Below are positions 1,714 through 13,373 of a stretch of DNA of 64,000 nt, one piece after another. The stretch is from Gemmatimonadota bacterium (GTDB lineage: Bacteria; Gemmatimonadota; Gemmatimonadetes; Gemmatimonadales; Gemmatimonadaceae). The stretch spans positions 1 through 64,000 of the forward strand of contig JAJPIS010000118.1 in the NCBI GenBank assembly GCA_021324635.1, given 5' to 3'. The notes beneath the pieces are model-generated. The model worked only from the letters and a program-made list of their open reading frames with translations, had not been told where the DNA came from and did not search any database. Position numbers and translations under genes: made by a program. How positions within the stretch are numbered: the stretch's first letter is position 1; each line of letters opens with the position of its first letter.

Positions 1714-2620
1714 CGCGGGGGCCGGGCGGCGGCGCGGGCGACGGGCTCGGGGTGTCGACGGGATCGGGACGCTCGAGCAACGCGCGGATCACCTCTCCGA
1801 CCTGCTCGGGCGATTCTTCCGGCGAATAGTGACCACCGGCGACGACATCGAGCGTCGCCCCGGGGAATTGTGCCTGGAGCCGACGGCCGAGGGCGACCGG
1901 GAGCAGGGGATCGTCGGCTCCCCAGACGATCGCCGTGGGCGGGACCGCCGCCATGGGGTCGGTCGTCCACACCGGCGCCATCGCGCGCGGCCGGGTGCCG
2001 AGGGCGCGCAGGTGCTGGAGGAGCATCCGCCGGCCATCGGCGCCGGCGTTGGGCGGTCCGATGAACGGACGGAGATAGTGCTGCGCCGAGTGCGTGAAAG
2101 TCGCCGGAGCACGATAGCCCCGGGCGAGATATCGGCGCAGGATCCGGAGGAGGATCGGCGGCGGAAGCAGCGCGAGAACGGGGAGCGCGAGCCGCGCGAG
2201 TGTCGCCGTCCGGTCCGGCCAGGAGTACGCGGTCACCGCGTCGACCAGGCAGAGCCTGGTGAGCCGCGACGGCTGCGTGGCCAGCACCTCGAGTAGGATC
2301 GCGGCCCCGCACCCCTGTCCGGCGGCACAGACGCGCTCGATCCCGAGCACATCGAGGAACGTGCCGAGCCGCGCGGCGTGCCCGGCGACAGTGATGTCCG
2401 CCGCAGCCCCGCGCTGCGCGGACGGATCGCTGCGCCCAAAGCCCAGCAGGTCGGGGACGATGACCCGGTGTCCGGCGGGGATGAGCGGGACGACTCGGGT
2501 CCACAGGTACGACGACGTCGGGAACCCATGCACGAGCAACACGGGCTCGCCGGCGCCCCGCGTCCCCGCCGCGTAGTAGTACAGCCGGGCATCGCCGACG
2601 TCGATGAATTCGCCCCTCAC
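1709..2620 (-). CDS. Alpha/beta hydrolase fold protein with degenerate nucleophile elbow
   Basis: A 303-aa protein from a GTG start; the frame is open further upstream, but that would run through the start of the divergent gene and a Gly-rich stretch with no homology signal. The hydrolase fold shows the oxyanion motif VHGFPTSSYLW (about 30-40), a conserved DLLGFGRSD strand, a candidate acid in VWGADDPLLP and the catalytic His in AGGHYSPEESPEQV near the C-terminus. It most resembles the haloalkane dehalogenase/epoxide hydrolase branch. The elbow, normally G-x-Nuc-x-G, reads GQGCG (101-105), so the nucleophile position holds Gly, next to a Cys. It may be a non-catalytic relative or use an unusual mechanism. 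Divergent from the next gene; its stop lies in a REP-like repeat. Confidence 0.8.
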   Translation of the reverse strand: MRGEFIDVGDARLYYYAAGTRGAGEPVLLVHGFPTSSYLWTRVVPLIPAGHRVIVPDLLGFGRSDPSAQRGAAADITVAGHAARLGTFLDVLGIERVCAAGQGCGAAILLEVLATQPSRLTRLCLVDAVTAYSWPDRTATLARLALPVLALLPPPILLRILRRYLARGYRAPATFTHSAQHYLRPFIGPPNAGADGRRMLLQHLRALGTRPRAMAPVWTTDPMAAVPPTAIVWGADDPLLPVALGRRLQAQFPGATLDVVAGGHYSPEESPEQVGEVIRALLERPDPVDTPSPSPAPPPGPRA

Positions 2621-2714
2621 GACCTCGCTCGCGCCCCGTCGCGTCGGGACATGTCGGGATGGCAGATGTGCCGGTGCTGCCGCACGATGGGCTCTAGCGG
2701 GCCCGCGGAAGAAT

Positions 2715-4163
2715 ATGCTAACGTTATGCGTGACCGCGCCCCCGCCCAGCCACCCCAACCCGCTCGCGCCGTCGGCCACGCTCTCACCGTCCTCGCCACT
2801 CTCGCCGCCGGTCTCGCCCGCCTCCCCCGCCTCCGCCACCTCCCCCGCCTCCCCCGCCGCCTCCTCCCACCCCTCCCCGACCCCCCACTCCACCGCACTG
2901 CCGGGAGTCCCGGCGGCCGGACCAGTGTCGCCCGTGCCTCCGACCCCGGGCACGGCCTCCCGCACGCCACATCCGGCGGTGGTGTCGGTCTCCGGTGGGA
3001 GCATGTCCTCGGCGGTCGCGCCGCCTCTGTCCTCCGCGGCGTCGCCCGCAGCCCCGCCGGCCCCGCCCCCCCCGCCCCCCCCACCGGCCAGTCCGGTGCG
3101 ATTCGCGCTGGAGTGGCTGCTGGCGCACGGGGCGCCGCCCGTGCAGTATCGCGCGATCGTCGACGTCGCGCGGCTGACCGCGCCGAAGGCGACGGCCCTT
3201 CCGCTCGCGTACATCCCCTCGCTTCAGCTCGCGGTCACCCAGCAGCCCGATGGGCGCTGGGGGCGGACGATGCTCGGCGTGCCGGGCCCGCGCGCGGAGG
3301 GGTTCGACGGCGTCGGGACGATCCCGGCGGTGCGGCGGCTGCTCGAGTACGGCTGGGACCGCGAATCTCCGCCGCTGGCGCGGGTGCGGCGCCTGCTCTT
3401 CCGGCTGCTCGCCGAGGACGACGACCAGGCGTACCTGTTCGAGTTCGCCCCTCCGAAGGGCAAGGCGGACGAGGACACCACCCGCCGTGGCCGGGGCATC
3501 CTGCGGGAGGCGGCGGCGAGTGCGCTGGCACAGGCCGGTTACGAGGACGACCCTCGGCTCCGCGGTGCGGCACGGCGCATCATCGACCGCATCAACGCGT
3601 ACCTGAAGTCGCCGCTCGCCCAGAAGCCGTGGGTCCGCGTCGCCAACCGGCAGGTGCTGGCCCCCGAGGCGGCGCCGCCCTCGATCCACGCGCTCACCAT
3701 GCTCGCCCACATGCCGTTCTTCCGGAGCGAGCATCACGAGCACGTCGAGCGGCTCTACACCTTCCTGACTCAGCCGCTACCGCGCCAGGAATCGGCGCAG
3801 CTCCTCGGTGGCACGATCCACGCGCAGCCGCACCTGGTCCTCGGTGATCTGCTCCCGCACCGCAACGCCGTCGAGGCCGACGTACCGGCGGCGCTCATGT
3901 GGCTCGAGCTGATGGCGCGACTGGGCTTTCTGCGCCGGAACGAGAACTGGTCGAAGCTGTTCGACCGCTTTGTCGATGACTGCGATCGTCACGGTGTCTG
4001 GCATCCGCACAAGGGGACCGCGATGCCGCGGTCGGCCAGTCCGTACGTCTGGCCCATGTTCCCCCTCGAGGAGACATCGGCCGGTGAGGAGCGCTGGACC
4101 GACGTCACGCTGCGCATCGGCATCATCGGCCGGTGCGCCGGCCGCCCGATCGAACTGGTCTGA
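2715..4163 (+). CDS. Conserved all-helical protein of unknown function, possibly alpha-toroid (prenyltransferase/squalene-cyclase-like)
   Basis: A 482-aa protein with the start placed at the first ATG after the divergent hydrolase; an ATG at 3001 would remove most of the low-complexity N-terminus and is a credible alternative. Residues to about 125 are Pro/Ser/Ala-rich with no recognisable domain. The remainder is helical, beginning near RFALEWLLAHGAPPVQYRAI and including PDGRWG, a motif type seen in prenyltransferase and terpene-cyclase alpha-toroid repeats; this assignment is only an inference. No signal peptide is clear. The downstream SelW-like gene has its ribosome-binding site directly on this gene's stop (TGAGGAA), so the two are probably co-transcribed and cotranslated. 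No catalytic function can be assigned. Confidence 0.72.
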   Translation: MLTLCVTAPPPSHPNPLAPSATLSPSSPLSPPVSPASPASATSPASPAASSHPSPTPHSTALPGVPAAGPVSPVPPTPGTASRTPHPAVVSVSGGSMSSAVAPPLSSAASPAAPPAPPPPPPPPASPVRFALEWLLAHGAPPVQYRAIVDVARLTAPKATALPLAYIPSLQLAVTQQPDGRWGRTMLGVPGPRAEGFDGVGTIPAVRRLLEYGWDRESPPLARVRRLLFRLLAEDDDQAYLFEFAPPKGKADEDTTRRGRGILREAAASALAQAGYEDDPRLRGAARRIIDRINAYLKSPLAQKPWVRVANRQVLAPEAAPPSIHALTMLAHMPFFRSEHHEHVERLYTFLTQPLPRQESAQLLGGTIHAQPHLVLGDLLPHRNAVEADVPAALMWLELMARLGFLRRNENWSKLFDRFVDDCDRHGVWHPHKGTAMPRSASPYVWPMFPLEETSAGEERWTDVTLRIGIIGRCAGRPIELV

Positions 4164-4175
4164 GGAACCGCCGTC

Positions 4176-4418
4176 ATGCAGATCGCGATCGAATACTGCG
4201 TCGTCTGAAACTACAAGCCGCGGGCTACCAGTCTGGCAGCCGAGATTCGCGCGCGCTTTCCGGACGCGACGGTACAGCTCATCCCCTCCAAGGGCGGACG
4301 CTTCGAGGTGATGCGCGACGGCGTCCCCATCTTCGAGAAATCCAAGGTCGGGCGTCACCCGTCCCCTGGAGAGGTCGTAGCCTCGTTGGAGGCGGGTCGC
4401 GGGAAGGACACCCAATGA
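4176..4418 (+). CDS. SelW/Rdx-family thioredoxin-like selenoprotein candidate (in-frame UGA = Sec11)
   Basis: An 80-residue frame starting MQIAIEYCVV, then TGA (4206-4208), then NYKPRATSLAAEI and on to TGA at 4416. Homologues of the SelT/SelW/SelH (Rdx) family begin with an IEYC-x-x-C/U-NY-x-PRA pattern. Here the UGA falls exactly on the second redox position of CxxU (C8, U11). The frame beyond it keeps family features to the end, including the GGRFEV and F-x-KSK-x-GRHPSPGEV blocks. A ribosome-binding site (AGGAA, 4163-4167) sits 8 bases before the ATG and overlaps the upstream stop. A hairpin of bacterial SECIS form lies 3' of the UGA. If decoded, it is a small cytoplasmic oxidoreductase with a Cys-Sec pair. 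Whether the cell has SelA, SelB and SelD cannot be seen here. A point mutation of a Cys codon (TGC/TGT to TGA) is the alternative. Confidence 0.82.
4221..4242 (+). promoter_or_regulatory. Candidate bacterial SECIS hairpin for UGA recoding
   Basis: The stem is CGG/CCG and CT/AG (one bulged G), an A.C mismatch, then CCA/TGG closing a 3-base loop GTC (4231-4233). The loop lies 22 bases 3' of the UGA at 4206-4208. Bacterial SECIS elements are known to lie inside the coding region just after the UGA, with a small apical loop carrying a G at its first or second position; this hairpin meets both conditions. The pairing was found by eye, without an energy calculation. Confidence 0.6.
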
Positions 4419-5104: not shown

Positions 5105-7336
5105 GTGATCCGTCGGGCCGTCACTGATCGGTATCTCCCGCCCGACCATGAGGCGTTCGTCGCGGCCGAGCCGCCGACGGGACGCGTGATCGTGATCGCG
5201 CCGACGCGGGCGGCCTGCGAGACGATCGAGCTGGCGATGGGGCTGCACCTCGACACGTTCCTGGAGCGGGCGCACGGGGCCGACCTGCGCGAGCTGGCGG
5301 GGCGTGGCCAGGGCTTCGGGATCGTTGCCGGGACCGGGACGGGGAAGACGCTCGCCATTCGGCCGATCGCCGAGGTGATCCTCCGCGGCGCGCCGCTCCG
5401 CGTGGGCGTCGTGAACCGCGAGCGTGAGGCGACACCGGAGACGCCGACCTGGAACGTCATCATCGTCACCACGGGCATCGCTCGCCGCTGGTTCCAGGAC
5501 GGCGACATCCTGCCGACTGACACGCTGGTCGTCGACGAGATTCACCAGACGTCGGCCGAGCTCGAGCTCTGCCTCGCGCTCGGGAAACGCAACCGCAATC
5601 GGTTCATCTGGCTCTCGGCGACGGTCGACCCTCGGTTCTACGCGCGCTATCTGGACTCGGCCACGGTCGTCGAGAGCACGGCCTTCGATCCCGACAAGGC
5701 GGCGACCGTTCGCGTCGTTCGCAAGGAGCCACTCGAGTTTCTCGACGACCGGTTCCTGCGCGACGTCCTCCGGCAGGCTCACGGCGTCGGCGTGTTCCTC
5801 CCGACGCGCGCGGCCGTCGAGGAAGCCGCGGCAGCGGTCGGGAGTCGCTTCCCGCGCATCACGGTCGCGTTCTACCACGGCGGGGAACCGATCCGCGTGA
5901 TCCGCCCGTTTCTCGACGGGAGCGCGTCCAAGCCGTACCTGCTCACCATGACGGCCGCCGGGCAGAGTGCCCTCAACGTCCACGGCCTCGACACGGTGGT
6001 CATCGACGACACGCGGTTCGCCAACGTCATCGAGCGCGGGCGCAATGTGCTCACCCGCCTCCACCTCGGCGCCAACGAGATCCTCCAGATGGCGGGCCGC
6101 GTCCACGGACGCGTCGCCGGCGGCCGGGTCTTCATCCTGTCGGACCGCGACATCGATTTCGCCACCCTCCGGCCGCAGGAGCCGGAGTTCCAGCTCGCCG
6201 GCGACTCGGAGCGCGTGGCGCTCACCTGCGCCAGCCTGGGCGTCCGCGCCGACGACCTCGATCTCCCCGTCCCGCTCGACCGCGCCGCCTACCGTCGAGC
6301 GGTGATGCTCCTCGAGGCGCGCGGCGTCATCGATGCGGCGACCGGCCGCCTCTCGGAATACGGGCGCGCCGTCGAAGCGCTTCCGGTCGATCGCCCATGG
6401 GCGGAGTTGATCGTCAACGCCGGCGAGGATCTGCTGCCCTACGTCGCCGTCATGAGCTCGATCGACTCGCTCCACCGCATGACGCGTGAGGAGCGCGACC
6501 TCGCCGGGCTCATCGTCCCGGGGAGCGACCATCTCACGGCGTACAACGTGTACGCCGAGGCGTTTGCGCGGTGCGGGTACGTGGGTGAGGTGTACGGGCT
6601 GGCGCGGCATCTCTTCGACGAGCGCATCGAGGAGTGGGCCGAGCGCCGCGGTGTGCTCATCAAGGCGCTGGAGGATGCCGCGCTCGCGACCGCGAGCGTC
6701 TACCGCAGCGTCGGCCTGCCGCTCCCGGCCGCACTCCCGCTGGCCGGCGAGCCGGTCCGCCGCCGGTTCGGGGAGCTGGTCGCCGAGTACATGCCGCTCG
6801 ATCTCGTCATCGACGAGGAGACGGCCGACGGCGAGGCGGCTCGCGTGTCGCGGTCGAGCGTCTGTGGCAGTTGGGGCGCGGTCGCCGGGACGCTGCGCTT
6901 CTTCGCCGACCGGTGGGGCATCCCACGGGCGGCGATCGAGGGGACGCAGATCCCGATGGATCTGATCCGCGCCCACGCGACCCGGAGCGACGGTGCCCTC
7001 GTCTACGATCCGCGACGCCGCCCCGTCCCGTTCGCCACCGAGTACCGGCTCATGTATCACGGATTCGAGCTGGAGCGCGAGCTCGAGCCGGTCGCGGTGG
7101 CTCCGCCCGCCGAGGAGGTGCTGACGCTGAAGCGCGAGTACGCCGAGCGCGTGCACGAGCGGCGATCCGAGCGCGCCGCACATGCGGATTCCCGCGCGCG
7201 GGGACGACACCACGGCCGCCGGCCGGGGGGCGCGGGGCACGGGGGCCGGAGCGGCGGCGGTCGACCGGGCGGCCGCCCAGCGGGTGGCGGCGGGCGCCAC
7301 GGCGGGCGCAGGGGCGGCGGACGGCGGAGCGGATAG
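5105..7336 (+). CDS. DEAH-type superfamily 2 helicase with RG-rich C-terminal tail
   Basis: A 743-aa protein from a GTG start 9 bases after the previous stop. Motifs in order: Walker A GTGTGKT (76-82), Walker B DEIH (144-147), SAT (171-173), a motif V-like TAAGQSALNVHGLDTVVID (283-301) and a motif VI-like QMAGRVHGR (328-336). A winged-helix/HA2-like part follows, with LEARGVIDAATGRLSEYGR matching the layout of HrpA/HrpB/DHX helicases, and SDHLTAYNVYAEAF resembles the SDHL motif of that family. The last 50 or so residues are almost entirely Gly, Arg and His repeats, as in RNA-binding RGG tails. It is shorter than HrpA (about 1300 aa) and motif VI has one residue more than QRxGRxGR. Likely an RNA-dependent NTPase, perhaps in ribosome assembly or RNA decay; the exact role is unknown. 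Confidence 0.85.
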   Translation: MIRRAVTDRYLPPDHEAFVAAEPPTGRVIVIAPTRAACETIELAMGLHLDTFLERAHGADLRELAGRGQGFGIVAGTGTGKTLAIRPIAEVILRGAPLRVGVVNREREATPETPTWNVIIVTTGIARRWFQDGDILPTDTLVVDEIHQTSAELELCLALGKRNRNRFIWLSATVDPRFYARYLDSATVVESTAFDPDKAATVRVVRKEPLEFLDDRFLRDVLRQAHGVGVFLPTRAAVEEAAAAVGSRFPRITVAFYHGGEPIRVIRPFLDGSASKPYLLTMTAAGQSALNVHGLDTVVIDDTRFANVIERGRNVLTRLHLGANEILQMAGRVHGRVAGGRVFILSDRDIDFATLRPQEPEFQLAGDSERVALTCASLGVRADDLDLPVPLDRAAYRRAVMLLEARGVIDAATGRLSEYGRAVEALPVDRPWAELIVNAGEDLLPYVAVMSSIDSLHRMTREERDLAGLIVPGSDHLTAYNVYAEAFARCGYVGEVYGLARHLFDERIEEWAERRGVLIKALEDAALATASVYRSVGLPLPAALPLAGEPVRRRFGELVAEYMPLDLVIDEETADGEAARVSRSSVCGSWGAVAGTLRFFADRWGIPRAAIEGTQIPMDLIRAHATRSDGALVYDPRRRPVPFATEYRLMYHGFELERELEPVAVAPPAEEVLTLKREYAERVHERRSERAAHADSRARGRHHGRRPGGAGHGGRSGGGRPGGRPAGGGGRHGGRRGGGRRSG

Positions 7337-7345
7337 CGACCCGAG

Positions 7346-7629
7346 GTGCAGGCCGCGCCCACCGCGCACGGCGACGCGGCGCTGGTCGCGTTGCGCGGGT
7401 CGTGGGACCGCAGCCGTGAGACCGGTTACAAGGTGGTGCTCGTCCGCTGAAATGGCGCCGGCGCCGGGAGCGGCCCCGCCGCGGGCGCACCCATGGATTT
7501 CGTGACCGGCTGGTCCGACGGATCCGATCACCGGGGTCGCCCGGTCGACGTCGTGGCCGACCGCGCGGGCAACCTGTTCATCAGCGACGATGAGGCGAAC
7601 GCGATCTACACGCTCACCTACGGCGGCCC
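7346..7629 (+). pseudogene. Remnant of a PQQ/sorbosone-type sugar dehydrogenase C-terminus
   Basis: After the helicase stop the same frame reads HGDAALVALRGSWDRSRETG, then YKVVLVR, an in-frame TGA (7448-7450) and then DFVTGWSDGSDHRGRPVDVV and LFISDDEANAIYTLTYGG. This matches the last 90 or so residues of the soluble glucose/sorbosone dehydrogenase beta-propeller family (RGSWNRS...GYKVV, DFVTGW...GRPVDV, SDD..GAIYR..Y). No upstream propeller blades remain, and the TGA replaces what is probably a Trp codon. The 3' end runs into the end of the converging pgl gene. It is best read as a deletion remnant. Confidence 0.72.
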
Positions 7630-8394
7630 GTCGGGCGCCGAGTCACGGTCGGCCGGAGGTGCCGCGGCCCGATCGAGCATCCAGAGCACGCGGTCGCGCG
7701 CGGTGACGCGCGCCACGGGGTAGCGCGCTCCCGCCGCACGGCCGGCCGTCATGATCTCACCCACGACCGCACGCTTGTCCGACCCGGCGCAGAGCACGAT
7801 CGTCGTCGTCGCCGCGTCGAGCGCCGGAAAGGTGAGCGTCACCCGGTCGTGGGTCGCCGCGCCGGGCGGCGCCTCGGCCGGGACGACCCACCGCCGCCGC
7901 TCCTCCAGGGTCGCGCTCCCGGGGAAGAGCGAGGCCGTGTGGCCGTCCGTTCCGACCCCCAGGAGCAACACGTCGAACGTCGCCGGCGGCTCGCCGGGGA
8001 ACGCCGACCGCAGCAGCGCGTCGTAGCGCGCCGCGGCGTCCGCCGGCGGCCGCTCGCCCTCTATCCGATGCACCTGCGCATCGAGCGCCGGGACCTGTCC
8101 CAGCAACGCCGCGCGGGCCATGCCGTAGTTGCTGTCGGGGTGGTCGGGCGGCACGCACCGCTCGTCCCCGAAGAAGATCACGGTCGACCTCCACGGCACG
8201 CGCTCGGCGAAATCGGTCGCCAGCATCCGGTACAGCGTGCGCGGCGTGCTCCCACCCGAGAGCGCGAGCGTGAACGGCCGTCCGGCCGCGACCGCGGTCT
8301 CCGCGGCGCGGGCGATCTCCTCGGCGGCGGCCCGGCTCAGCGTCTCGACGTCATCGTGAACCGTCACCCGCCACGGGGCGGGCCATGCGCTCAC
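7618..8394 (-). CDS. pgl: 6-phosphogluconolactonase
   Basis: A 258-aa protein from a GTG start whose codon overlaps the zwf stop (GTGA). It hydrolyses 6-phosphoglucono-delta-lactone to 6-phosphogluconate, step two of the oxidative pentose-phosphate pathway, in the cytoplasm. Family marks are ALSGGSTPRTLYRML (glucosamine-6-P isomerase/lactonase fold), FFGDERCVPPDHPDSNYGMAR with the conserved Asp-Glu-Arg, and LLLGVGTDGHTASLFPG. The length is normal for DevB/Pgl. It is the last gene of the rpiB-pgi-HAD-gnd-zwf-pgl unit, and translational coupling to zwf is likely. Its stop overlaps the dehydrogenase remnant on the other strand. Confidence 0.95.
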   Translation of the reverse strand: MSAWPAPWRVTVHDDVETLSRAAAEEIARAAETAVAAGRPFTLALSGGSTPRTLYRMLATDFAERVPWRSTVIFFGDERCVPPDHPDSNYGMARAALLGQVPALDAQVHRIEGERPPADAAARYDALLRSAFPGEPPATFDVLLLGVGTDGHTASLFPGSATLEERRRWVVPAEAPPGAATHDRVTLTFPALDAATTTIVLCAGSDKRAVVGEIMTAGRAAGARYPVARVTARDRVLWMLDRAAAPPADRDSAPDGPP

Positions 8395-9935
8395 GCGGCT
8401 GCGCCCGTCTCCGTCCCTGCCCCGGCGTGGGCGCGCGGGGCGGCCTCTCGGGGCTCCCGCTCCGGCACGACCGAGCCGGACTCCGCCGGCCCCCAGGACC
8501 CCGCCGGGTACGGATGCGGTGGGGCGTGCCGGTCGAGGAGCGGCGCGTAGACGCGCCACGAGGTCTCGACCTCGTCGGCGTGAACGAAGAGTGTCTGATC
8601 GCCGCGGAGGAGATCGAGCAGCAGGGTCTGATACGCCTCCGGCAGCGTCTTGAACTCCTCGTCGTAGTTGAAGTGCAGCGTGAGCCGCTGGAGGCGGAAC
8701 GGCTCGCCCGGCGCCTTGACGTCGAAGAAGAGGAGGAACCCCTCGTTGGGTTGGAGCGTGATGACGAGCGTGTTGGCCTGTGGAGTCGTGTCCGGGACCG
8801 AGCGGAACATCCAGACCGGCGCCTTCCGGAACCGGACCCGGATCTCCGTCAGCCGCCGCGCCATGCGCTTCCCGGTGCGCAGATAGAACGGCACACCCTG
8901 CCACCGCCAGTTGTCGAGGCAGAGGCGCAGCGCGACGAAGGTCTCCGTCATCGATGCCGGCGAGACGCCCGGCTCCTCGCGGTAGCCGGGGACCGCCTCT
9001 CCGTGGACGCGGCCGGCCGCGTACTGCCCGAAGACGGCATCCTCGAGTCGGACCGACGCGATCGAGCGCAGGGCCTTCACTTTCTCCTCGCGGATCGCGT
9101 CAGCCTGAAACGCCGTCGGCACTTCCATCGCGACGAGCGCCAGCAACTGCGTGAGATGGCTCTGCACCATGTCGCGCAACGCCCCGGCCTGCTCGTAGTA
9201 GCCGGCCCGCTGCTCGACCCCGAGCTCCTCGGCGACGGTGATCTCGACGCTCTCGATGTGGTCGCGATTCCAGAGCGACTCGAACATCGCGTTCGCGAAC
9301 CGGAAGACGAGGAGATTCTGGACCGTCTCTTTCCCCAGATAGTGGTCGATCCGGTACACCTGCGACTCGTCGAAGAACTGGTGCACGAGTCGATTGAGCT
9401 CCTGAGCCGACGCGAGGTCGCGGCCGAACGGCTTCTCGATCACGATCCGCGTCCACCCGGGGCTGCGATTGAGCCCGGCGGCGCCGAGCCCCGCGATCGT
9501 CGATGGGAACGCCTGCGGTGGGAGCGACAGGTAGAAGATGCGGTTCCCGGGGAGGCCGTGCTCGCGCTCGATCTCCTCGATCCGCGTCCGGAGGGCGGCG
9601 AACTCGCCCGGGTCGCCGGTCGCCATCGGCTGGTAGTACGCGGCGGTCGACGTCCACGCGTCGAGATCGCCGGCGGATCGGTCGTCGGGGGGGATCGCCT
9701 CCCGGACGATCGCCCGGAACGCAGCGTCGTCGGTGGCGCCATCCCGTGACACGCCCAGGATCACGCAGCCGCGGGCGTCGATCCCGTACGTGTGGAGCTG
9801 CCAGAGCGCCGGGATGATCTTGCGGCGGGCGAGGTCGCCGGTCGCGCCGAAGATCACGAAGAGGCACGGCTCGACCGGCTCCGGGTGCTCGGGATTCGCC
9901 TTGAGCGTCGTGGTCACGGTCGCAGTCGGCGTCAT
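8391..9935 (-). CDS. zwf: Glucose-6-phosphate 1-dehydrogenase
   Basis: A 514-aa cytoplasmic enzyme, the usual length for Zwf; oxidises glucose-6-phosphate to the lactone with reduction of NADP (or NAD). The Rossmann motif VIFGATGDLARRK lies near residue 27, the substrate/catalytic signature RIDHYLGKETVQN carries the catalytic His, and RIVIEKPFGRD and PFYLRTGKRM are present. The ATG follows a strong ribosome-binding site (GGGAGGGAAG) and overlaps the gnd stop as ATGA, which favours it over upstream in-frame starts. Downstream, its TGA overlaps the pgl GTG. Zwf, pgl and gnd together give the complete oxidative branch. Confidence 0.97.
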   Translation of the reverse strand: MTPTATVTTTLKANPEHPEPVEPCLFVIFGATGDLARRKIIPALWQLHTYGIDARGCVILGVSRDGATDDAAFRAIVREAIPPDDRSAGDLDAWTSTAAYYQPMATGDPGEFAALRTRIEEIEREHGLPGNRIFYLSLPPQAFPSTIAGLGAAGLNRSPGWTRIVIEKPFGRDLASAQELNRLVHQFFDESQVYRIDHYLGKETVQNLLVFRFANAMFESLWNRDHIESVEITVAEELGVEQRAGYYEQAGALRDMVQSHLTQLLALVAMEVPTAFQADAIREEKVKALRSIASVRLEDAVFGQYAAGRVHGEAVPGYREEPGVSPASMTETFVALRLCLDNWRWQGVPFYLRTGKRMARRLTEIRVRFRKAPVWMFRSVPDTTPQANTLVITLQPNEGFLLFFDVKAPGEPFRLQRLTLHFNYDEEFKTLPEAYQTLLLDLLRGDQTLFVHADEVETSWRVYAPLLDRHAPPHPYPAGSWGPAESGSVVPEREPREAAPRAHAGAGTETGAAA

Positions 9936-10921
9936 GACCGCTTCCCTCCCGCCGCCGCCGCTGGCGCCGCCGCGGCCGCCGACGATGCGCCCGGCGCCTG
10001 CGCCGCCGTCCCACTCGGCTCGGCCTTGACGGCATGGCCGCCGAACTGGTGGCGGAGGGCGGCCAGCATCTTGTCCGTGTACGAGTCCGAGTCGCGCGAC
10101 CGGATGCGCGCGATCAGCGAGTGCGTGATGATGGGCGCCGGCACATTGAGGTCGATCGCTTCGGCCACCGTCCACCGACCCTCCCCGGAGTCGGCGACAT
10201 AGGGCGCGATACCCGCGAGCGACGGATTCTCCTTCAGGGCGTTGGCGGCCAGGTCGAGCAGCCAGGACCGCACGACACTGCCGTACCGCCACACGTCGGC
10301 GATCCGCGCGAGATCGAGGCCGAACTCCGCCTTGCCCCGCATGATGGCGAACCCCTCGGCGTACGCCTGCATCATGCCGTACTCGATCCCGTTGTGCACC
10401 ATCTTCACGAAGTGCCCGGCGCCGCTCGGGCCCATGTACCCCCAGCCGTGGTCCGGTGCCGGTGCGAGCGTCTGGAAGATGGGCCGGAGCCGCTCGACGG
10501 TGGCCGCCTCGCCGCCGATCATCAGGCTGTAGCCGGCCTCGAGCCCCCAGATCCCGCCGCTCGTCCCCGCATCGACGAACCGAACGCCGCGGGGCGCCAG
10601 CTCCGCCGAGCGCCGCATCGCGTCCTTGTAGTTGCTGTTGCCGCCGTCGATGATGGTGTCACCGCTATCGAGGAGCCGGCCGAGCGTCTGCACCGTGCTC
10701 TCGGTCGCATCGCCGGCCGGCACCATCACCCACACCACCCGGGGCGGCGTCAATCGGCCGACCAGATCCTCGAGCGACGCGGCGCCGATCGCGCCGCCGC
10801 TCGCGGATGTGCCGACCGCCCGGGCATCGCGGTCGTACACGACCACCCGGTGGCCGCCGCGGAGCAGCCGCGTCGTCATGTTCGCGCCCATGCGACCCAA
10901 GCCCACCATGCCTAGCTCCAT
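9932..10921 (-). CDS. gnd: 6-phosphogluconate dehydrogenase, decarboxylating (short GntZ-type)
   Basis: A 329-aa protein. MELGMVGLGRMGANMTTRL is the dinucleotide-binding start; IIDGGNSNYKDAMRR and the GTSGGIWGLEAGYSLMIGG block carry the substrate-binding signature of 6-phosphogluconate dehydrogenases, with VKMVHNGIEYGMMQAYAEGF the catalytic Lys-Asn helix. It is the short class (about 300-330 aa), lacking the long C-terminal domain of the 470-aa E. coli enzyme. It converts 6-phosphogluconate to ribulose-5-phosphate and CO2. A strong ribosome-binding site (GGAGGAAG) lies 8 bases before the ATG, inside the end of the HAD gene. The stop overlaps the zwf start. Confidence 0.95.
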   Translation of the reverse strand: MELGMVGLGRMGANMTTRLLRGGHRVVVYDRDARAVGTSASGGAIGAASLEDLVGRLTPPRVVWVMVPAGDATESTVQTLGRLLDSGDTIIDGGNSNYKDAMRRSAELAPRGVRFVDAGTSGGIWGLEAGYSLMIGGEAATVERLRPIFQTLAPAPDHGWGYMGPSGAGHFVKMVHNGIEYGMMQAYAEGFAIMRGKAEFGLDLARIADVWRYGSVVRSWLLDLAANALKENPSLAGIAPYVADSGEGRWTVAEAIDLNVPAPIITHSLIARIRSRDSDSYTDKMLAALRHQFGGHAVKAEPSGTAAQAPGASSAAAAAPAAAAGGKRS

Positions 10922-11667
10922 GCTGTCGCTTCCTCCGGTCTGATGAGGAGCGCTCGCACTGCGCGCTCGAGTTGCGCCGGATCGTCGACGACCGTGACGC
11001 GCGGGTCGGCCGGCATGGCATCGACGGCCGTGCGAGTCAGCGGGTTCGTCGATGCCACGCAGATGACCCCGGCCGCCAGCGCCGCCTCGATCCCCGGGAC
11101 CGAATCCTCGATCGCCACGCATCGCTCCGCTGGCATGCCGAGGCGCGACATGGCCAGGAGATAGAGGTCGGGGGCCGGCTTCCCCCGCGCCACGTCGTCG
11201 ACCGTCACGATGGCATCAAACTCATCGCGGATCGCGAGCGTGTCGAGGACGAGGAACGCCTGGGCGGCATGCGACACGGTCGTCAGCGCGAGCGAATACC
11301 CATCGTGCGCGAGGTGCCGGAGCAGCGATGTGGCCGCGGGCAGCTCGTGGCTTCTGATGAGCTCGCGGTCCTGGAGCAGTTGCTCGTACAGCCGGAGCCG
11401 GATCGCCACGAAGGCGGCCCGCGGCGAGTCGGCGCCCAACTCCTGCATCCGCTGTCGGGCCGCATCGGCGAGGCCGAACCGGTCGAGCAACGTCTGCGCG
11501 ACCTCGTCCCGCGGTCGCCCGATGCACTGGTCGTACGCGTCGATGACGGCCTCTTCCGAGATCACACCCGGCCGCAGGGCCGCCGCCGCCCGGGCATACG
11601 ACTCGGCCTTCAGCGACTCCGTCTGGACGAGCGTCCCGTCGAGGTCGAAGAGCACGGCCGACCGCAT
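10912..11667 (-). CDS. HAD-superfamily phosphatase/phosphoglucomutase-like protein
   Basis: A 251-aa protein. Motif I FDLDGTLVQTES gives the nucleophile Asp and the acid/base Asp; motif II is LALTTVS (Thr instead of the commoner Ser at the first position); motif III is the Lys in RGKPAPDLYL; motif IV is AIEDSVPGIEAALAAG. The helical cap after motif I places it in subfamily I, with beta-phosphoglucomutase and phosphoglycolate phosphatase. In this operon it may act on a sugar phosphate, but the substrate cannot be deduced. A TTG nine bases upstream (11676) would give a 4-base overlap with pgi and is an alternative start; the ATG is preferred because MRSAVLFDLDGT is typical for the family. It overlaps gnd by 10 bases. 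Confidence 0.88.
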   Translation of the reverse strand: MRSAVLFDLDGTLVQTESLKAESYARAAAALRPGVISEEAVIDAYDQCIGRPRDEVAQTLLDRFGLADAARQRMQELGADSPRAAFVAIRLRLYEQLLQDRELIRSHELPAATSLLRHLAHDGYSLALTTVSHAAQAFLVLDTLAIRDEFDAIVTVDDVARGKPAPDLYLLAMSRLGMPAERCVAIEDSVPGIEAALAAGVICVASTNPLTRTAVDAMPADPRVTVVDDPAQLERAVRALLIRPEEATAWS

Positions 11668-11672
11668 CTGCC

Positions 11673-13373
11673 TCAAGGAACGAGGGCCGCGATTCGTGCG
11701 ATGTCCTGCGGCACGCGCGCGGGGTCGACCCGGAGCACGCGGCGGCCACGGTCGAGCAACGCCTTCCGGTCACCGAGCGCCTGGGCGAGCTTCAGCACGC
11801 CGAAGCTGATGCCCGACGCGTCCGCGTCCTCGCTCATCGGGATCGGGATGTCGCGCGCCGGCGGCGGCGGGGGCGTCACCAGTTGGAGGAAGACGCCGCG
11901 GCCGCCGTCGCCCTTGTGGAGCTGACCGGTGGAGTGCAGGTAGCGCGGCCCGTAACCCGCCGTCGTGGCGACCTGGAGGTGGTCGCGGATCGCGACCCGG
12001 AGCGCCTGCATCGCGTCGGTCGTCGCCGGGGTCGGCTGCACGAACGCCTGGATCGCGACATAGTCGCCCGGCCGGACACCCCGCAGAAACCCGCGCACGA
12101 TCCCGGCGGCGCCATCGGGGCCGGCGCCCGCCGAGCGCGCGCCCGCCTGCGGGCTCGCGTAGACGGTGAGCGCGTCGTCGTGCGCGGTCGACTCGAGCGC
12201 GGGCAGGGAGCCGGTCTTCTCGTACGCGCTCACCAGCTCGCGGGCGACGACCTTGGCCGACTCGACGTTCGGCTGGTCGAAGGGATTGATCCCGAGCCGC
12301 CAACCGGCGACGGCGGTCGCCATCTCCCAGGTGAAGAACTGTCCCCCGATGTCGTACGGGTCCGCGATATCCAGCCGGACGACCGGATGGCCGGCCTCGC
12401 GGAGCGCGCGGACGGCCGACTCGTGAGTCGTGTCGCCGGCCAGGCGGATGTCGATGAACAGCCGGTCGGCCCCGTAGACGGATGGCGGGCCGAGCGGCTC
12501 GTCGACGACCGGCAGGATCCCCTTGCCGTCCTTGCCCGTGCTCTCGGCGAGCAACTGCTCGACCCAGCTCCCGAAGGCGCGGACGCCCGGCGAGATGGCG
12601 AAGGTGGCCTTGTCGCGCCCGTGCGCCGCGGCCTCGCCGAGGATGACGCCCAGCCGCGCCGCGGTCGCCGGGTCCCGGCTCGCCGCCGTAGCGCGGGCCA
12701 GCAGTCGAGGGACGTCGGCGCCGGTGAGCGATGCCGGAACCAGCCCGAAGTGCGACAGCGCGGAGTAGCGGCCGCCGATGTTCGGGTCGTTGAGGAACGT
12801 GGCCCGGAAGAGGTGCCGTGCGGCGGTATCCGCGAGCGCGCTCCCCGGGTCGGTGATCGCGATGAAGTGCTGTCCCGCCTCGACCGCGCCGAGCGCGTGG
12901 ACGGCGCGCCGGAAGAAGTAGCGGAAGAAGGAAAACGTCTCCACCGTCCCGCCGCTCTTGGTCGAGACGATGAACAGCGTCCGGCCGGGATCCAGTCGGC
13001 TCGCCTGCGCACGAACGGCGTCGGGATCGGTGCTGTCGAGCACCGCGAGGTCGAGATACCCCGGCGCCACACCGAACGTCTCGCGAAAGACCTCCGGGGC
13101 GAGGCTGGAGCCGCCCATGCCGAGGAGGAGCGCATCGGTGTACCCGGCCATACGCACGTCGCCGACGACGCGGTGGATCTCGGGGAGCGCGTCACCCATG
13201 CGCGCGGCGATCGTGAGCCAGCCCAGACGGTTGCTGATCTCGGTGGGCGCGGGGCTCCAGACGGTGTAGTCGTCACGCGCGATGCGCGCGGCGATCTGCT
13301 CGCGCTCGAGGCGCGCGGTGGTCTCGGCGACCGGGCCGCTCAGGGCGCCGAGATCGGCGTGCAGGACGGTCAT
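11673..13373 (-). CDS. pgi: Glucose-6-phosphate isomerase
   Basis: A 566-aa protein interconverting glucose-6-P and fructose-6-P. Recognised by MGGSSLAPEVFRETFG, the phosphate-binding STKSGGTVETFSFFRYFF, GGRYSALSHFGLVPA, the LGINPFDQPNVESAK helix and the C-terminal YLHSTGQLHKGDGGRGVFLQ. The last block is typical of the Pgi half of bifunctional transaldolase-Pgi proteins, but there is no transaldolase domain here. The ATG overlaps the rpiB stop (ATGA). A segment near residues 400-425 is rich in Ala/Gly (RSAGAGPDGAAG), probably a surface loop. Its place in the operon lets the cell recycle fructose-6-P into the oxidative branch. Confidence 0.95.
   Translation of the reverse strand: MTVLHADLGALSGPVAETTARLEREQIAARIARDDYTVWSPAPTEISNRLGWLTIAARMGDALPEIHRVVGDVRMAGYTDALLLGMGGSSLAPEVFRETFGVAPGYLDLAVLDSTDPDAVRAQASRLDPGRTLFIVSTKSGGTVETFSFFRYFFRRAVHALGAVEAGQHFIAITDPGSALADTAARHLFRATFLNDPNIGGRYSALSHFGLVPASLTGADVPRLLARATAASRDPATAARLGVILGEAAAHGRDKATFAISPGVRAFGSWVEQLLAESTGKDGKGILPVVDEPLGPPSVYGADRLFIDIRLAGDTTHESAVRALREAGHPVVRLDIADPYDIGGQFFTWEMATAVAGWRLGINPFDQPNVESAKVVARELVSAYEKTGSLPALESTAHDDALTVYASPQAGARSAGAGPDGAAGIVRGFLRGVRPGDYVAIQAFVQPTPATTDAMQALRVAIRDHLQVATTAGYGPRYLHSTGQLHKGDGGRGVFLQLVTPPPPPARDIPIPMSEDADASGISFGVLKLAQALGDRKALLDRGRRVLRVDPARVPQDIARIAALVP

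Follow-up and report, generated by a model that had tools for sequence, protein, structure and literature searches.

The question raised by this locus is whether a UGA at the eleventh codon of a short frame marks a broken gene or is read as selenocysteine (Sec). The frame lies in bases 1 to 64000 of contig C19 (the whole stretch of DNA analyzed, here called the window), from the draft genome (4.09 Mb in 127 contigs) of an uncultured soil-type bacterium. A sequence-only reading of the window had favored Sec over a nonsense mutation, and the Sec machinery of the genome, the conserved UGA, purifying selection after it and the constraint on a SECIS hairpin all bore that preference out. We hold with very high confidence that positions 4176 to 4418 are a functional selW gene whose UGA is read as Sec by way of the SECIS, giving an 80-amino-acid (aa) redox protein with a Cys8-x-x-Sec11 motif. 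The features on which this conclusion is built are as follows.

2604 to 4163, plus strand: upstream gene of unknown family (no Pfam match).
4162 to 4166, plus strand: ribosome-binding site GAGGA, seen in the sequence, sharing bases with the upstream gene's stop codon.
4176 to 4418, plus strand: selW coding sequence, Rdx/SelW family, 80 aa (translation, Pfam, NCBIfam and predicted fold).
4206 to 4208, plus strand: UGA read as Sec, residue 11 of C8-V-V-U11 (TGA in 81/81 aligned Sec relatives; full Sec machinery).
4221 to 4242, plus strand: bacterial SECIS hairpin within selW, with stem CGGGCUACCA/UGGCAGCCG and loop GUC (loop G in 81/81, paired changes, excess over codon shuffles).
4230 to 4232, plus strand: codon 19 (AGU, Ser), which holds the invariant SECIS loop G (only AGT, GGT or AGG in 87/87 Sec genes).
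4416 to 4418, plus strand: selW terminator TGA (translation).

Translation of 4176 to 4418, with U for UGA, gave MQIAIEYCVVUNYKPRATSLAAEIRARFPDATVQLIPSKGGRFEVMRDGVPIFEKSKVGRHPSPGEVVASLEAGRGKDTQ, and UGA occurred in the frame in just two places, codon 11 and the final stop. The single internal UGA thus sits at the second redox position (C8/U11), as had been claimed, and the family blocks NYKPRA, GGRFEV and KSKVGRHPSPGEV are present. The ribosome-binding site also stood where it had been placed: GAGGA is separated from the ATG by 9 nucleotides (nt) and overlaps the upstream stop, TGA at 4161 to 4163. A Pfam search with the upstream open reading frame (ORF) returned no match. In G060 and G172 the C-terminal end of this gene immediately precedes selW, and in G273 and at locus L056 the gene is likewise found upstream of it; the two genes are probably cotranscribed in this lineage. 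As a side observation, the conserved neighborhood in these four cases makes the upstream ORF a possible functional partner of SelW. Elsewhere in the window, the minus strand carries a sugar-phosphate metabolism cluster (7618 to 13373) with Pfam matches to 6-phosphogluconolactonase and glucose-6-phosphate dehydrogenase and with ORFs that, by eye, resemble 6-phosphogluconate dehydrogenase, a HAD-type phosphatase and glucose-6-phosphate isomerase.

Curated profiles placed the product in the Rdx (SelT/SelW/SelH) family, with scores above the cutoffs for Pfam PF10262 (Rdx; E = 3e-19, 69.4 bits against 22.6), TIGR02174 (60.9 against 34.2 bits) and NCBIfam NF041051 (93.6 against 88 bits). Given the Pfam and NCBIfam scores and the presence of the same UGA codon in nearly all relatives, the match is not a chance one. 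An AlphaFold2 model built from 45 sequences, with U modeled as C, had a mean pLDDT of 90.5 and consisted of strands at residues 2 to 8, 32 to 38, 43 to 47 and 50 to 54 and helices at 14 to 27 and 64 to 78. Its best structural match was the Agrobacterium SelW-related protein 2fa8 (TM 0.86, root mean square deviation 0.9 Å), and it also matched other SelW-related bacterial structures, human MIEN1 and mouse SelW (2npb). The model places the C-x-x-C/U motif where strand 1 of a thioredoxin-like fold ends. C8, position 11 (Sec or Cys), A17 and G41 were invariant.

The Sec machinery, which the sequence-only reading had singled out for checking, is complete: the genome holds selA (548.8 bits, contig C17), selB (319 bits, with its neighbors in frame and a SelB winged-helix domain, contig C66), selD (373.9 bits, contig C81) and selC. 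The last, a tRNA-Sec with anticodon tca, scored 73.3 bits by covariance model at C81:64389-64481, was also called by ARAGORN and starts some 160 nt beyond the selD match. The selD frame contains one in-frame UGA, at the active-site position (RCAGUASKMGPGDL). As an observation in its own right, selD of the window genome (G000 C81:63297-64226; UGA at 5328 to 5330 of locus L018) is thus itself a selenoprotein gene, and SelD of the congeners G060 and G172 has no internal stop, so that a Sec/Cys difference exists inside one genus. Formate dehydrogenase alpha was considered as a further selenoprotein and rejected, the best match having no internal stop.

Conservation was assessed in a class-level sample of 394 genomes, with Gemmatimonadaceae as the nearest named relatives; the closest named relatives of the window SelW (64 to 73% identity) were Gemmatimonadaceae and Gemmatimonas metagenome-assembled genomes (MAGs). 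A relative of SelW was found in 180 of the 394 genomes. Among the matches listed, all had TGA except that of G201. The weaker matches, with six left unread (G009, G025, G097, G119, G129 and G207), had TGA on rereading except those of G029 and G329 and a marginal match in G269. In total, about 170 genomes, as independent assemblies, carried the same selW TGA. C-x-x-U stood at the same place in the translations of 81 Sec genes, which include MAGs labeled Krumholzibacteriota, Planctomycetota, Anaerolineales, Acidobacteria, Eisenbacteria, Myxococcota and Deltaproteobacteria. We then compared the 60 codons downstream of the UGA between the window gene and six relatives: five pairs gave dN values of 0.21 to 0.25 and dS values of 1.1 to 1.7 (dS was saturated in the sixth), for a dN/dS ratio of about 0.15 to 0.2, and no stop was found within these codons in any of the six. 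Decay of the frame after the UGA in the closest relatives, named beforehand as evidence that would count against Sec, was absent, and purifying selection was found instead. Two selW genes in the sample kept the UGA and showed a defect later in the gene, a frameshift in G057 (L091) and an apparent internal deletion in G024 (L105); either misassembly or early decay may explain these.

The claim of a SECIS-type hairpin held, with corrections. The hairpin with its GUC loop exists and its loop G (4231) is 22 nt past the UGA, but the stem starts only 12 nt past it. The window copy has 7 of 8 stem pairs, with one A-C mismatch and one bulged G, and a folding energy of -8.7 kcal/mol for 4221 to 4244. 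Checked by hand, it fits the bSECIS model quoted in PMC13188914, with an energy no better than that of shuffled sequences: folded alone against dinucleotide shuffles, it gave a nonsignificant z value of 0.76. An Rfam search at a permissive threshold returned chance matches only and no SECIS. Because the isolated fold does not beat shuffles, the support for the hairpin comes from comparison across species and not from energy. The loop G was invariant in 81/81 aligned Sec relatives. Counting from the UGA, stem pair 21-33 appeared as C-G, G-C, U-A and U-G across relatives, and pair 22-32 appeared as G-C, U-A and G-U, with A-C mismatches in many. When codons 5 to 12 after the UGA were resampled synonymously from the codon usage of the window, the mean number of stem pairs was 5.1 of 8, compared to 7.3 observed, and the mean energy was -7.6 kcal/mol, compared to -12.1 kcal/mol observed. 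Cross-species codon and pairing evidence thus upholds the SECIS; the folding energy of the window copy does not.

A strong trace of this constraint was seen at codon 19. In 87 Sec genes this codon was AGT (53 genes), GGT (20) or AGG (14) and never any other, a count that is not corrected for phylogeny. Elsewhere in the same genes AGT made up 21 of 295 Ser codons, AGG 25 of 357 Arg codons and GGT 67 of 478 Gly codons; against the 72% GC background of the window these codons are mostly rare. Because the peptide ATSLAAEI had served to find some of the relatives, the residue at this position is biased, but the choice among Ser codons is not. Cys forms had GCG or TGG (Ala or Trp) at codon 19. We think it likely that the SECIS in selW dictates residue 19, which can be Ser (AGU), Gly (GGU) or Arg (AGG) and nothing else, since its codon has to provide the loop contacted by SelB, that this holds in several phyla and is lifted on loss of Sec, and that the resulting codon and amino acid footprint can recognize Sec genes without recourse to folding energy.

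SelW and the Sec machinery also occurred together. A selA match was present in 290 of the 394 genomes (over the family cutoff in 283), comprising 171 of the 180 genomes with SelW and 119 of the 214 without (Fisher P = 9e-21, uncorrected for relatedness). Nine SelW genomes had no selA match; seven of them, all multicontig assemblies, had a clear tRNA-Sec (71 to 80 bits), and for that reason their selA probably lies in an assembly gap. Clear Cys forms of SelW numbered three. Those of G201 and G029, both with a TGC (Cys) codon, belonged to precisely the two SelW genomes with no selA match and no tRNA-Sec over the family cutoff. The third, a divergent form in G329, occurred with selA present, and so Cys also occurs alongside the machinery. 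The in-frame UGA aligns with the redox-position Cys of G201, G029, G329 and the solved homologues. G201 is a single-contig genome in which no selD over the cutoff was found; its selW, which carries TGC, and the UGA-bearing selW of its congener G255 stand at collinear loci. With GCG as codon 19, the G201 gene no longer has the SECIS loop; seven other members of the genus have UGA together with an AGT or GGT loop codon. G201 shows an in-place change from Sec to Cys, with loss of selA, selD and tRNA-Sec. The collinear loci are L084 and L125 in G201 (Cys SelW) and L080 and L126 in G255 (Sec SelW). Two further genomes of this genus, G138 and G154, were seen to have neither SelW nor selA.

Could the UGA nevertheless be a true premature stop, with the rest of the frame a pseudogene remnant? 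This genome does use UGA as an ordinary stop, at the ends of both selW and the upstream gene, and the isolated hairpin fold is not significant. Nonetheless, nearly all of the 180 genomes, and members of several other phyla, have UGA at this very codon, the SECIS is conserved and the Sec machinery is present; we rejected this reading because relatives show purifying selection on the codons after the UGA, and regard it as extremely improbable. A sequencing or assembly error might instead hide the TGC or TGT of an ordinary Cys protein. Because about 170 independent assemblies, of many species, carry the same TGA, an error in the window assembly is implausible, and the SECIS loop codon accompanies TGA but is not kept by the Cys forms. 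This explanation was also rejected, and we give it almost no credence.

A selenium-free reading, in which a suppressor or reassigned tRNA inserts Cys or some other amino acid at the UGA, would fit the finding that some relatives (G201, G029 and G329) have a functional Cys there. In this genome, however, UGA serves as an ordinary terminator, both selA and selD are intact, the tRNA with the UCA anticodon is tRNA-Sec by both the covariance model (73 bits) and ARAGORN, and the SelB-type SECIS is conserved; the idea was rejected on these grounds as having hardly any chance of being right. A Sec gene with a mainly regulatory and not catalytic role, as a switch that responds to selenium by giving either a 10-aa stop product or the full-length protein, would suit the very early position of the UGA and the general selenium dependence of UGA recoding (PMC4513850). 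We consider it very unlikely, since the four invariant positions and an intact fold speak against it, as does the replacement of Sec by Cys on loss of the machinery in G201, which points to catalysis.

On the preferred reading, a functional Sec-containing SelW, a ribosome starting at the ATG at 4176 would reach the UGA at codon 11, where the SECIS at 4221 to 4242, with its conserved loop G, would recruit SelB-GTP carrying Sec-tRNA-Sec(UCA). Sec would be inserted in place of termination to give an 80-aa protein with a thioredoxin-like fold and the Cys8-x-x-Sec11 motif at the end of strand 1. By analogy with the family, a Cys8-Sec11 selenenyl sulfide would form and then be reduced by a cellular thiol system. 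The gene, UGA, machinery, conservation, SECIS constraint and fold were computed here; Sec insertion in this organism would follow from established knowledge of SelB-dependent decoding, and a function as a small selenol/thiol oxidoreductase would follow from the family.

Mouse selenoprotein W (2npb) shares the thioredoxin-like fold of the window SelW and carries a CxxU motif. Eukaryotic SECIS elements lie in the 3' untranslated region; unlike these, that of the window selW is in the coding sequence. The Cys-form SelW-related structures 2fa8, 2obk, 2p0g, 2ojl and 3dex share the fold (TM 0.81 to 0.87) and the C-x-x-C/U site but have Cys where the window SelW has Sec. At the residue that lies under the SECIS loop in Sec forms, and is Ser, Gly or Arg in them, Agrobacterium 2fa8 carries Trp. 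SelW-like selenoproteins of bacteria have been on record since 2005 or earlier (PMC1088965, a Sargasso Sea survey) and were covered by a survey of bacterial Sec (PMC1794560). The window gene shares with them the place of CxxU, a SECIS just after the UGA and a Sec form that outnumbers the Cys form in Sec-using organisms. In contrast with the surveyed proteins, genes of this type occur throughout a class-level sample whose nearest named relatives are Gemmatimonadaceae; Gemmatimonadota/Gemmatimonadetes are not mentioned in PMC1794560 or in two later reviews, and a search of the open-access literature, with subscription papers outside its scope, found no paper on SelW in this group. Omission of SelW from annotation has been noted in Epsilonproteobacteria (PMC4607533). 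Campylobacter jejuni SelW (CJnc60), whose family NF041051 has a cutoff that the window SelW passes, is likewise about 80 aa long, has a UGA-encoded Sec and was missed by annotation. It has been proven by Ribo-seq and proteomics/mass spectrometry to be translated past the UGA (PMC11955535), whereas such translation of the window selW is a computational prediction.

The selW gene described here belongs to a bacterial selenoprotein family that was known before, of which it is a sound and widely conserved case, and the concept of bacterial selenoproteins is unchanged by it. Its most interesting by-products are the codon 19 footprint, a strong signature of SECIS constraint, and the in-place switch, a clean natural experiment in which, within a single genus, Sec gives way to Cys and both the SECIS and the machinery are lost. 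The selA matches indicate that Sec use is common in the group, and the gene exposes a blind spot in annotation: standard gene callers would drop or truncate a redox selenoprotein of about 45% of the class genomes sampled.
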